Origin: Anaeromyxobacter diazotrophicus
GTDB taxonomy: Bacteria; Myxococcota; Myxococcia; Myxococcales; Anaeromyxobacteraceae
Direction: 5' to 3'
Length of the DNA: 64,000 nucleotides
NCBI RefSeq assembly: GCF_013340205.1
Contig: NZ_BJTG01000001.1
Location: 558,001-622,000 of the forward strand
Below the pieces are notes generated by a model. It was not told where the DNA came from. It worked only from the letters and a program-made list of their open reading frames with translations, and did not search any database. Shown one piece after another: positions 28,648 through 32,747 of the stretch. The position numbers and the translations under genes are program-made. Each line of letters starts with the position of its first letter. The stretch's first letter is position 1.

Positions 28648-29325
28648 TCAGTGCGCGCCGCGGGGGGCGGCGCCGGCGCCCAGCGCCGCGGCCACCTCGG
28701 CCAGCTCCGGCGCGGGGAGATCCGAGACGAGCGCGTGCCCGAGATCGCCCGAGCGCCACAGCACGATCTGGAAGCCCACCCGCGAGGCCGCGCGCGCCTC
28801 GGGCCACGGCCGCCCCCCCGCCCTGAAGACGAGCAGCGTGGCGGCGTGCCCGCGCGCCGCGTACTCGAGCACGGCGGCCTTGCGATCGAAGACGTAGCCG
28901 ACCGAGCCGCCCTTCAGGCGGACGTCGTCGCCCGGCGGCGAGGGCACGTCCGGCGCGAAGTCGAGCCTCCCCTCGAACCAGGGCTTCACCTGGTGCGGGC
29001 CGCCGCTGGCGATGTCGGGCGGCTGCTGCCGCGCCAGGACGCGCAGGTGGTCGTTCACCGCCTCGGCCACCAGCGCGCCCGCCTCGCCGCCCTCCCGGCC
29101 CGCGCGCCCGACGAGCAGCCCGCCCGCGACCAGCACGAGCCCCGCCGCCAGCGCCGGCGCCAGCGCGGCCCACGCGCGCGGCCGCGGCGCCGGGCGGGCG
29201 GCGGGCCCGACGAGCAGCCGCAGGCGCGCCCGCAGCGCGGGGGGCGCGGGGTGTCGCGGCGCCCGGAGGAGCAGCTCGTCGAGGATCCGCTCGGCGGGAT
29301 CGGCGCTGCGGGGCGGGCGGGTCAA
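28648..29325 (-). CDS. anti-sigma factor-like membrane protein
   Basis: A 225-residue protein with one transmembrane segment near residues 50-75 (AWAALAPALAAGLVLVAGGLLVG) and an extracytoplasmic domain containing VNDHLRVLA, VKPWFEGRLDFAPDV, GGSVGYVFDRKAAVLEYAAR and ATLLVFRAGG. This is the pattern of the COG5662 anti-sigma family that partners ECF sigma factors. No zinc-finger cysteines are present in the short cytoplasmic part. The start codon is TTG at 29325; it overlaps the sigma gene's TGA stop (TTGA), and GGGAG lies 5 bases upstream. A paralogue with the same domain lies on the other side of the sigma gene. Confidence 0.8.
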   Translation of the reverse strand: MTRPPRSADPAERILDELLLRAPRHPAPPALRARLRLLVGPAARPAPRPRAWAALAPALAAGLVLVAGGLLVGRAGREGGEAGALVAEAVNDHLRVLARQQPPDIASGGPHQVKPWFEGRLDFAPDVPSPPGDDVRLKGGSVGYVFDRKAAVLEYAARGHAATLLVFRAGGRPWPEARAASRVGFQIVLWRSGDLGHALVSDLPAPELAEVAAALGAGAAPRGAH

Positions 29326-29891
29326 GGGGTCTCCCGGGAGGCGTAGTCGGCGAGCAGCAGGCGCAGCTCGGCGCGCGCGCGGGACAGGCGCGACTTCACC
29401 GTGCCGATCGCGCAGCCGAGGACGCCGGCCAGCTCACCTTCGGTGAAGCCTTCGGCGTCGAGCAGCACGACGGTGCGCGCCGGCTCGGAGAGCTGGCCCA
29501 GCGCGGCCTCGATGTCGGCGCCGACCAGGCGGCGCATCCGGTCGAGCTCCCGGTCGCCCATGAGCGAGGGCTCGAGGCCCGGCGCGGCGGCGGCGGGCTC
29601 CGTGGTGTCGTACGGCTCGTCGCCGGCGTGGACGTGGTCGCGCCGGTACCGGCTCAGGAACGCGTTCCGCAGGATCCGGAAGAGCCAGGCCTTCACGTTG
29701 CTGCCGGGCTCGAGGCGGTCCCAGGCCGCGATGGCGCGCGCATAGGTCTCCTGCACGAGGTCCTCCGCGTCCCCCGGGTGGCGGGTCAGGTACCGGGCGA
29801 GGTTGTAGAGGGCGTCGGCGTGCTCGAGCGCCTGCTCGGGCCCGCTGGCCGGCGCGGCCCGCGCCCTCCTCGCCCAGGACCGTAGGCTCAT
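29322..29891 (-). CDS. ECF RNA polymerase sigma factor
   Basis: A 189-residue extracytoplasmic-function sigma factor. Region 2 reads LYNLARYLTRHPGDAEDLVQETYARAI then KAWLFRILRNAFLSRYRR; region 4 reads LGQLSEPARTVVLLDAEGFTEGELAGVLGCAIGTVKSRLSRARAELR. The linker between them is short and acidic, as usual. It is encoded between two paralogous anti-sigma-like proteins, overlapping the downstream one by four bases. An element GGAAC-N16-CGTT at 29934-29958 upstream suggests autoregulation. The stimulus is not evident; co-located copper-protein genes hint at a metal or redox signal, which is inference. Confidence 0.93.
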   Translation of the reverse strand: MSLRSWARRARAAPASGPEQALEHADALYNLARYLTRHPGDAEDLVQETYARAIAAWDRLEPGSNVKAWLFRILRNAFLSRYRRDHVHAGDEPYDTTEPAAAAPGLEPSLMGDRELDRMRRLVGADIEAALGQLSEPARTVVLLDAEGFTEGELAGVLGCAIGTVKSRLSRARAELRLLLADYASRETP

Positions 29892-29933: not shown

Positions 29934-29958
29934 AACGCGGGCGCCCGCCGATCGTTCC
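29934..29958 (-). promoter_or_regulatory. ECF-type promoter element B, upstream of the sigma gene
   Basis: On the minus strand GGAAC (29958-29954) is followed after 16 bases by CGTT (29937-29934). The spacer shares CGGCGGGCGCC with the element at 30662-30688. It lies 43 bases before the sigma factor's ATG, where an autoregulated promoter would be. Confidence 0.5.
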
Positions 29959-30661: not shown

Positions 30662-30688
30662 GGAACGGTCGGCGCCCGCCGGCGTTCC
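30662..30688. promoter_or_regulatory. symmetrical, bidirectional ECF-type promoter element A
   Basis: GGAAC at 30662-30666 and GTTCC at 30684-30688 are inverted repeats. Read in either direction the element gives GGAAC-N16-CGTT, a plausible -35/-10 pair for an ECF sigma factor. It lies between the divergent genes at 30546 (minus) and 30778 (plus) and could drive both. Confidence 0.5.
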
Positions 30689-30777: not shown

Positions 30778-31782
30778 GTGCGCCACCCCATCGACCGCAG
30801 GAGCTTCCTCAGGATCGCGGGCCTGTCGCTCGGCGCCGGTGCCCTCTACCGCGTCGCGCCCGCGCTCGCGGCGGGACCGGGCGGGCGCGACACCGCGCGC
30901 CGCCTCGCCCGCGCCAACGGCGAGGGGGTGACCCCGTTCTCGTTCGTGCAGCTGAGCGACACCCACGTCGGCTTTCGCGGCCCGCCCAACCCCACCGGCA
31001 CCCTGGCCTTCGAGCGCGCGGTCGAGGTGGTGAACGGCCTCCGGGAGCAGCCGGAGCTCGTCCTCTTCACCGGCGATCTCACGCACGACGCGGAGGGGCG
31101 GGCCGAGCGCCTCGCGAGGATGCGGCGGTTCCAGCAGCTCGCGAGCGGGCTGCGGGCCAAGGCGCGGCACGCCGTCCCCGGCGAGCACGACGCGGCCATC
31201 GACGGCGGCGCGCTCTACCGCGAGGTCTTCGGCGAGACGAGCTACGCCTTCGACCACCGCGGGGTCCACTTCGTCGCGCTCGACAACGTCTCCAGGCCGA
31301 AGCCGGAGATCGGCGCCGAGCGGCTCGCCTGGCTGCGCCAGGACCTCGCGCGCTACCCGGTCACCGCCCCCATCGTCGTCTTCACGCACCGCCCGCTCTT
31401 CGACCTGAAGCCCGAGTGGGAGTGGTTCACCCGCGACGGCGCCGAGGCGATGAAGCTGCTCGCGCCCTACGAGAACGTCACCGTGCTCTACGGCCACATC
31501 CACCGCGAGCACGTCCACCAGGAGCCGAACGGTCGGCACGTCGCGGCGCGCTCGCTCATCTTCGCCTTCCCGGACCCCGCCGCGGCGGCCGAGAAGAAGC
31601 CGGCGCCCTTCGACCCGCAGCGCCCGTTCCGGAACCTGGGGCCGCGGCTGCTGCACGCCGGCCCGGGCGCCTCCTCCCGGACGCTGGCGCTCGGGATGGA
31701 GGAGGTGGAGCTCACCCTGCGCGAGCACTCGGGCACCGAGGGCTTCCAGCAGCTGCTCCGGCCGTCCACGCTCGAAGGCTGA
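30778..31782 (+). CDS. Tat-exported metallophosphoesterase
   Basis: A 334-residue calcineurin-like phosphoesterase. The N-terminus IDRRSFLRIAGLSLGAGAL is a twin-arginine signal, so the folded enzyme acts outside the cytoplasm. Metal-binding motifs: Asp61 and His63 in SDTHVG, Asp100 in GDLTHD, GEHD at 135-138, the histidine in FTHRPLF, and GHIHRE. The third motif is GEHD in place of the usual GNHD/E, a substitution that I believe recurs in relatives found beside cupredoxin genes. The start is GTG at 30778 with GGAGGA before it. The CuA-protein gene follows after 14 bases. The substrate is unknown. Confidence 0.88.
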   Translation: MRHPIDRRSFLRIAGLSLGAGALYRVAPALAAGPGGRDTARRLARANGEGVTPFSFVQLSDTHVGFRGPPNPTGTLAFERAVEVVNGLREQPELVLFTGDLTHDAEGRAERLARMRRFQQLASGLRAKARHAVPGEHDAAIDGGALYREVFGETSYAFDHRGVHFVALDNVSRPKPEIGAERLAWLRQDLARYPVTAPIVVFTHRPLFDLKPEWEWFTRDGAEAMKLLAPYENVTVLYGHIHREHVHQEPNGRHVAARSLIFAFPDPAAAAEKKPAPFDPQRPFRNLGPRLLHAGPGASSRTLALGMEEVELTLREHSGTEGFQQLLRPSTLEG

Positions 31783-31796
31783 AAGGGGAGACCGAC

Positions 31797-32150
31797 ATGA
31801 CGACGACGGGTTGGAGGTGGGCGCGCGCGGCCGCCGCCGCGGCGCTGCTGGCGTTCGGCGGCGGGGCCTCGGCGGCGGGGCGGGTGATCGAGGTGAAGGC
31901 CAAGCGCTTCGAGTTCAGCCCCGCGGAGCTGAGGCTGAAGCTCGGCGAGCCGGTCACCCTGCGCGTCACCAGCGCCGACGTGACGCACGGCTTCTACCAG
32001 AAGGAGCTCGGCATCGACGCCGAGATCGAGCCGGGCCGCGCCACGGAGGTGGCCCTCACCCCGACCAGGGCGGGCCGGTTCACGCTCATCTGCGACCACT
32101 TCTGCGGCGCCGGCCACGGGAACATGCGCCTCGTCCTCGTCGTGGAGTGA
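31797..32150 (+). CDS. stand-alone CuA-type cupredoxin
   Basis: A 117-residue secreted protein: signal peptide to about residue 27, then one cupredoxin domain. His64 (VTHGF), Cys99, Cys103, His107 and Met110 in the loop CDHFCGAGHGNM reproduce the binuclear copper (CuA) ligand set of cytochrome oxidase subunit II and nitrous-oxide reductase. No other oxidase subunit is encoded nearby and the protein has no membrane anchor beyond the signal. It would be a soluble periplasmic electron carrier or copper chaperone. It lies 14 bases after the phosphoesterase gene, with AAAGGGGAG as ribosome site, so the two are co-translated from one mRNA. Confidence 0.88.
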   Translation: MTTTGWRWARAAAAAALLAFGGGASAAGRVIEVKAKRFEFSPAELRLKLGEPVTLRVTSADVTHGFYQKELGIDAEIEPGRATEVALTPTRAGRFTLICDHFCGAGHGNMRLVLVVE

Positions 32151-32231
32151 CGGTCGCCTGCCCGCTGCTCCCTCGGGGCGCCGCGGCCGATCGGCGCGCC
32201 CTCGGGTGTGGATCGAGCGGGAGGAAGAACC

Positions 32232-32747
32232 ATGGACCAGGGCAGATTCGCAGTGGTGGCCGCGGCGGCGCTCGCGGCGGCGTGCGGCGGCAGCTACAGC
32301 GCGCCCAGTGGAGGGACCGACGCCGGCACGGTCACCACCACCGGCGCCGACGGGGGCACGACCCCGACCTCGTTCGAGCTGCACATCAAGGGCATGGCCT
32401 TCTCGCCCGAGAACCTGACGGTGCCGGCGGGCGCCACCGTCCAGGTGGTGAACGACGACGGCTCGGTGCCGCACTCGGTGACGAGCGAGGCGACGGCGGG
32501 CGCCTACGTGCCGGGCAGCGTGGCCGGGATCTCCTTCGACACCGGGATCTTCACCGGGACGCGGAGCTTCACCCTCCCCGCCAGCGCCGCCACCGGCACG
32601 GTCATCCCCTACTTCTGCCGGGTGCACGGCGCGATGATGGTGGACGCGGCCAAGGTGCAGCTCACCATCGGACCGGCCGGCACGGCGCCGGTGACGCCGA
32701 CCACGACCCCCGCCCCCACCATGCCGCCGAGCCCGGGCGGCTACTGA
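32232..32747 (+). CDS. plastocyanin-like copper lipoprotein
   Basis: A 171-residue lipoprotein: signal with lipobox LAAAC (Cys18), a Ser/Thr/Gly linker, then a blue-copper domain, then a Thr/Pro tail. The domain begins FELHIKGMAFSPENLTVPAGATVQV. The type 1 copper ligands are His81 (VPHSVTSE), Cys129 and His132 (YFCRVHG), and Met135 or Met136. It would sit on the outer side of a membrane and pass electrons. I chose the ATG at 32232, which follows GGAGG; an ATG-like start 8 codons earlier would spoil the signal peptide. It is 81 bases from the CuA gene, most likely in the same operon. Confidence 0.88.
   Translation: MDQGRFAVVAAAALAAACGGSYSAPSGGTDAGTVTTTGADGGTTPTSFELHIKGMAFSPENLTVPAGATVQVVNDDGSVPHSVTSEATAGAYVPGSVAGISFDTGIFTGTRSFTLPASAATGTVIPYFCRVHGAMMVDAAKVQLTIGPAGTAPVTPTTTPAPTMPPSPGGY

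Follow-up and report, generated by a model that had tools for sequence, protein, structure and literature searches.

The operon at 30778-32747 of the window (the whole stretch of 64,000 nucleotides analysed) is best read, with medium confidence, as an extracytoplasmic redox module under the control of an ECF sigma factor. In this module, a dinuclear-metal protein of the calcineurin fold (PHO) would exchange electrons with a carrier protein of its own, whose type can be swapped. Comparison of related loci makes it very probable that the GEHD-bearing PHO and an electron carrier form a co-inherited, ECF-linked pair. Passage of electrons between the two, directly or via the product of PHO, is the most plausible reason for this pairing, and we consider it likely. 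That the GEHD protein is itself the oxidoreductase can be put forward tentatively. The sequences themselves show which genes are present, that the metal and copper ligands are invariant, that the linkage is conserved and the carriers are exchanged, and that one gene fusion and a promoter motif exist.

The genes for PHO, a CuA protein, and a blue-copper protein share one strand and are separated by gaps of 14 and 81 bp (Table 1). The initial annotation had described three consecutive genes for a GEHD phosphoesterase, a CuA domain, and a type 1 copper lipoprotein, facing an ECF sigma cluster, and this layout was recovered. The ECF gene opposite the operon has an anti-sigma-like gene on each side, and no gene for an oxidase or N2O reductase adjoins the operon. 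In the proposed reading, CuA is the carrier in this genome, with the blue-copper protein as a likely second one.

Table 1. Features of the PHO operon and the facing ECF cluster (window positions)
Feature	Position	Strand	Basis or remark
Second anti-sigma-like protein	28648..29325	-	53% identical to P0002
ECF sigma factor	29322..29891	-	PF04542 and PF08281 (regions 2 and 4)
Weaker match to ECF-type promoter, upstream of sigma gene	29934..29958	-	loose pattern
Anti-sigma-like sensor protein P0002, 188 aa	29980..30546	-	homologous to anti-sigma C-terminal domain at related loci
Palindromic ECF-type promoter GGAAC-N16-CGTTCC	30662..30688	both	faces PHO (+) and P0002 (-)
PHO, Tat-type GEHD calcineurin-fold metalloprotein, 334 aa	30778..31782	+	PF00149; invariant ligands in alignment
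Stand-alone CuA protein P0003, signal-like N-terminus, 117 aa	31797..32150	+	PF00116; invariant ligands
Type 1 copper (plastocyanin-like) probable lipoprotein P0004, 171 aa	32232..32747	+	PF00127

PHO begins with a GTG start codon and carries the twin-arginine motif RRSFLRIAG. Its match to PF00149 (E 1.9e-12; 48.5 bits) lies above the gathering score of 21.5. The class III motifs DxH, GD, H, and GHxH are present (D61, H63, D100, H204, H240, and H242), but motif III reads GEHD (residues 135-138) instead of the GNH[DE] of the class III cyclic-nucleotide phosphodiesterases (CpdA/SpdA). The six residues named and E136 are invariant across the PHO alignment and coincide with the usual ligand positions of a dinuclear site, with the asparagine of motif III changed to glutamate. 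GEHD occurs in every PHO copy read, including those from Proteobacteria, Actinomycetota, and Gemmatimonadota; in the window genome, the motif can be read in eight further Metallophos genes, all of which encode GNHD or GNHE. With 33 bits against 225 and 26 against 400, PHO also remains below the NCBIfam equivalog cut-offs for class III phosphodiesterases. The complete ligand set argues for a functional metal site, and the constant glutamate may point to an altered chemistry or metal preference. We infer this chemistry because the AF2 model of PHO is too poor to use (pLDDT 52; 7 usable rows, all from close relatives). The same model yields weak fold matches to purple acid phosphatase, Mre11, and a zebrafish dimetal phosphatase.

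By profile comparison, Rv0805, GpdQ, and purple acid phosphatase are among the solved structures nearest to PHO. This set of relatives would suit a redox-regulated phosphoesterase, in which the carrier holds a di-iron or Fe-M site in the active, mixed-valent state in the manner of purple acid phosphatase. Such a task would be open to one-electron carriers of several kinds. Nothing points to iron in PHO, however, and to our knowledge the change from Asn to Glu has no counterpart among the purple acid phosphatases. We regard this explanation as improbable.

PHO profile matches were obtained in 14 of 195 Myxococcota genomes and in 42 of 396 Acidobacteriota genomes. A search with CuA and a separate one with PHO among 60 relatives retrieved identical genomes, with both genes side by side. 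In total, 54 PHO loci were read in these two phyla. ECF or anti-sigma genes were located within three genes of PHO in 49 loci, and an electron carrier directly adjoined PHO in 52. The 3' neighbour of PHO was a CuA protein in 31 of the 54 loci, followed by a c-type cytochrome in 7 of the 31; three of the 31 CuA genes are either damaged or truncated where a contig stops. The CuA genes at L109, L116, L117, and L122 were identified by frame-by-frame reading. Elsewhere the 3' neighbour was a Haem_bd-cytochrome c (10 loci), a Rieske protein (8), or a plastocyanin-like protein (2). The remaining three loci had, respectively, a DUF2231-like membrane protein and then a cytochrome, a plastocyanin-like gene on the 5' side, and no carrier. 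Most pairs of PHO and carrier genes overlap by 4 bp or nearly abut.

A subset of 37 loci (L107-L143) was picked by PHO alone, with neighbours ignored. Here, a redox carrier was found directly 3' of PHO in 34 loci, directly 5' in one, and one gene away in one, while one locus had none. Since the carrier adjoins PHO in 35 of these 37 loci, the linkage does not stem from the way in which the loci were selected. In a control, no carrier motif was found within 1.5 kb of any of the other 11 Metallophos genes in the window genome. The initial annotation had suggested surveying neighbourhoods for ECF factors and had named a lack of conserved co-occurrence as the result speaking against its proposal. 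The survey revealed conserved co-occurrence not only in the two phyla sampled widely but also in relatives from several others. Because the linkage is kept across phyla, the reading as an envelope unit is not overturned on this ground.

In a maximum-likelihood tree of PHO, whose deeper forks are only moderately supported, three groupings were seen: a clade paired with Haem_bd-cytochromes or plastocyanins, a CuA clade including the window copy, and a mixed clade of Rieske- and CuA-paired copies. Carrier types follow clades, which indicates few independent exchanges, probably three or four. The switch of the Rieske group differs as well, with the ECF factor fused to an RskA-like C-terminus. Thus, the enzyme is the constant component, and carrier and switch are the replaceable ones. 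The window PHO falls within the Acidobacteriota copies, and few members of the bacterium's own family have the operon; this placement and patchy presence suggest horizontal transfer of the operon. The Planctomycete genome of L062 contains no PHO, and its CuA match is situated in an ordinary oxidase cluster.

Two further arrangements were observed. At L050 9766-11319 (G045), PHO continues without a break into the C-terminal half of CuA, which bears the ligands, and the N-terminal half is missing; this could reflect a deletion, a fusion, or an assembly fault. The Myxococcota loci of family f7 (L046 9010-9501 and 12239-12661, and relatives) encode two additional conserved proteins without a Pfam match, one a small membrane protein with several helices, the other small and cupredoxin-like.

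Carrier exchange also bears on the copper-handling function, or protection from copper stress, that was initially considered for the set. The presence of two copper proteins in the window operon and of SCO close to the rhizobial PHO copies agrees with such a function. Yet eight loci with a Rieske protein and ten with a haem protein do without copper carriers, although their PHO is of the same kind. Among the genes flanking the loci read, most of which are unannotated, neither a copper-export ATPase nor any other copper-resistance gene was recognised. As the Rieske and cytochrome partners are copper-free, copper handling is quite unlikely. The copper half of the earlier proposal is not supported, with sister lineages replacing the CuA partner by a copper-free Rieske protein or c-type cytochrome. 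Its other half, a single envelope redox unit, is upheld by the conserved co-occurrence, the ECF-type promoter motif, and a natural gene fusion, and so more firmly than one locus would permit. The action of PHO on an exported phospho-compound, also part of that proposal, would be a putative activity.

Additional GEHD proteins were found by tblastn searches against plasmids and chromids. These relatives belong to Beta- and Alphaproteobacteria and Actinomycetota, and most of them have carrier-type neighbours. The gene order is anti-sigma, PHO, CuA-like in Cupriavidus; ECF, anti-sigma, PHO, plastocyanin-like in Burkholderia stagnalis and Caballeronia; ECF, Rieske protein, cupredoxin, PHO in Mycobacteroides; cupredoxin, PHO in Streptomyces; and MauG-like peroxidase, PHO, CXXCH protein in Methylocystis sp. 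MJC1. No recognised carrier lies immediately beside PHO in Methylocystis bryophila (L216) and Burkholderia vietnamiensis (L205), so the association is weaker in some distant copies. In a Mycobacteroides abscessus plasmid (L206 2709-3413), the genes for the Rieske [2Fe-2S] protein and the ECF sigma factor overlap by 4 bp. The N-terminal part of this Rieske protein could be an anti-sigma domain, so that the protein may be an anti-sigma factor that senses redox state by its iron-sulfur cluster.

A single uninterrupted ORF of 437 aa encodes PHO together with a cupredoxin in Gemmatirosa kalamazoonensis (L209 3932-5245). Both PF00149 and PF00127 match above cut-off, the copper ligands of the cupredoxin part are complete, and an ECF/anti-sigma pair is located opposite the fusion gene. 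Of all the evidence that enzyme and carrier work as partners, this fusion is the strongest single item.

The rhizobial copies display a different order: SCO, beta-sandwich protein, PHO, and SoxA/TsdA-type cytochrome, followed by cbb3 or SoxYZ genes (Sinorhizobium and Phyllobacterium). They are relevant to the possibility that PHO is not redox active itself but acts like SoxB, as a hydrolase that yields a product for the carriers to oxidise. The rhizobial gene 3' of PHO codes for a SoxA/TsdA-type cytochrome c, SoxYZ and an FAD/cytochrome pair are encoded nearby with soxB not in view, and the fold and metal ligands of PHO would suit a hydrolase. However, SoxY (PF13501) was present in one of the 21 PHO genomes tested and not in the window genome, and the Asn-to-Glu change is absent in the ordinary relatives from the same genome. 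Because SoxY is missing from 20 of 21 genomes, a SoxYZ-bound substrate cannot be general, and a SoxYZ link as a general feature of PHO was rejected. We consider a SoxB-like role to be unlikely.

The cluster of Sinorhizobium meliloti pSymA (L217 7318-13334) comprises SCO, the beta-sandwich protein, a GEHD PHO, the SoxA/TsdA-type cytochrome, the FAD/cytochrome pair, and SoxYZ. It is located near hemA and a cbb3 oxidase and may be a sulfur-linked version of the module.

The ECF factor of the window shares 56% and 52% identity with those of the G017 and G003 loci. The HxxxCxxC zinc-finger motif of anti-sigma factors is absent from both anti-sigma-like proteins of the window and present, for example, in L044_6 and at L054-L061. 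Homologues of P0002 conserve three histidines (48, 66, and 114 of P0002) and an HTVKPWF-like motif. These residues suggest that the P0002-type sensor domain, which has no Pfam family, may sense a metal or haem.

The strict form of the window promoter has two matches in the window, one per strand, as compared to 0.02 expected. In the whole window genome it occurs at 30662-30688 and in one other place only. A loose pattern was found six times in the window (3.5 expected), four of these within the ECF/PHO cluster. The variant GGAAC-N16/17-CGT[TC] is that of the window and its two nearest relatives. The form GGAAT-N15..17-[GC][AG]GT[TC] precedes PHO in 25 of the 54 loci; in 200 sets of dinucleotide shuffles, the mean was 0.29 and the maximum 3, for patterns that had been written after inspecting the sequences. 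A tight form of the motif occurs one to nine times per genome in 18 Acidobacteriota genomes, repeatedly at the PHO locus. A similar element, GGGAATA, was recognised by eye before the PHO copies of Burkholderia stagnalis, Gemmatirosa, and Caballeronia. The rarity and position of the motif may be taken as strong evidence despite its post hoc definition.

A search for a wider ECF regulon by means of the promoter pattern gave, except for G284, off-locus sites that are mostly intragenic or precede unrelated genes and therefore offer no functional hint. In G284 (L186 6465-15984), four ECF-type promoter matches occur within 7 kb, which is the sole sign of a wider local regulon. One match each precedes the ECF gene, PHO, and two other genes, which encode a repeat protein and an unrelated envelope protein.

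The CuA protein matches PF00116 (COX2) above cut-off. Its ligand set H...CxxxCxxxHxxM is complete and consists of exactly the residues named at the outset (His64, Cys99, Cys103, His107, and Met110), all invariant in ten aligned relatives. When superposed on the CuA domain of Thermus ba3 oxidase (2cua), the AF2 model (mean pLDDT 81) shows an rmsd of 1.3 A over 88 alignment columns, and a Greek-key cupredoxin fold of the CuA type is predicted. The same Thermus domain is the nearest solved relative (34% identity). The score of 59 bits is below the CoxB equivalog cut-off of 147.7, and the operon includes no coxA.

It could still be supposed that this protein belongs, as a subunit that has become detached or as an assembly factor, to an oxidase or N2O reductase whose genes lie elsewhere. 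The known sequences closest to it are oxidase CuA domains, and one rhizobial PHO copy is located near cbb3 genes. On the other hand, the window genome encodes elsewhere two CuA-type oxidases, one of them adjoined by an SCO gene, and nosZ. As both oxidases and NosZ possess CuA domains of their own, P0003 is not obviously a missing subunit. Genes of the P0003 type accompany PHO, and not oxidase genes, in the loci read. This makes a detached subunit the least credible of the explanations considered, with very little chance of being correct. The window genome encodes two more small, cupredoxin-like exported proteins without CuA ligands (L005 1339-1818 and L006 1396-1815).

The blue-copper protein P0004 matches PF00127 marginally (22.9 versus 21.2 bits). 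It has type 1 copper ligands, a histidine in PHSV and C-x2-H-x2-M in CRVHGAM, and a weak lipobox. No BLAST relative of P0004 was detected in the first nineteen loci compared (L044-L062), so this protein is a local addition. Plastocyanin-like carriers as such recur at other PHO loci.

In the proposed electron-exchange module, an envelope signal would cause the anti-sigma partner(s) in the membrane to release the ECF factor. RNA polymerase would then start at 30662-30688, and PHO, CuA, and the blue-copper protein would be produced together. PHO would fold with its metals before Tat export. Its dinuclear site, with the Asn-to-Glu change in motif III, would trade electrons with the carrier, directly or through its product, and the carrier would connect PHO to the respiratory chain. 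We infer the reading of the promoter by the ECF factor, the contact between PHO and carrier, and the flow of electrons together with its direction and substrate. What gene neighbourhood and one fusion show is a partnership, short of electron flow.

Each single domain of the set belongs to a known superfamily. Neither a description of the combination of PHO with a carrier nor an assay of any family member was found in the family libraries and openly readable papers searched, and no known system can be named to file the set under. Calcineurin-fold enzymes are regarded, and annotated in genomes, as hydrolases, and we know of none that is an oxidoreductase. With due reserve, the GEHD clade may be proposed as a new class of extracytoplasmic oxidoreductases with the calcineurin phosphoesterase fold, present in at least five phyla and served by four interchangeable kinds of single-electron carriers. 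A clade of this kind would either extend one of the most frequent metalloenzyme folds to redox chemistry or reveal an overlooked, hydrolysis-linked input to respiration. The module also places CuA in a context other than oxidases and N2O reductase, and it provides a short, testable list of targets for several ECF factors of Acidobacteriota.

Among known systems, SoxB is an extracytoplasmic calcineurin-fold enzyme that works beside electron carriers, the Sox cytochromes. PHO differs from it by a smaller size, the GEHD motif, and the absence of SoxY from nearly all PHO genomes tested. The CuA domain of Thermus thermophilus ba3 subunit II has the same ligands and the same predicted fold as the window CuA protein, but the latter lacks the oxidase anchor and an adjoining subunit I gene, and has PHO as its neighbour. 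A CuA site that belongs neither to an oxidase nor to N2O reductase has a precedent in PmoD/AmoD (PMC6189053). In PmoD, however, a different ligand set is arranged across a homodimer, whereas the window CuA protein has the classical set inside one chain. The class III cyclic-nucleotide phosphodiesterases (CpdA/Icc, Rv0805, SpdA, and GpdQ) share with PHO the calcineurin fold and six of seven metal-ligand positions, and give the best profile matches. Unlike these enzymes, PHO is of the Tat type, has GEHD in place of GNHD, falls far under the equivalog cut-offs, and has a redox carrier as its constant neighbour.
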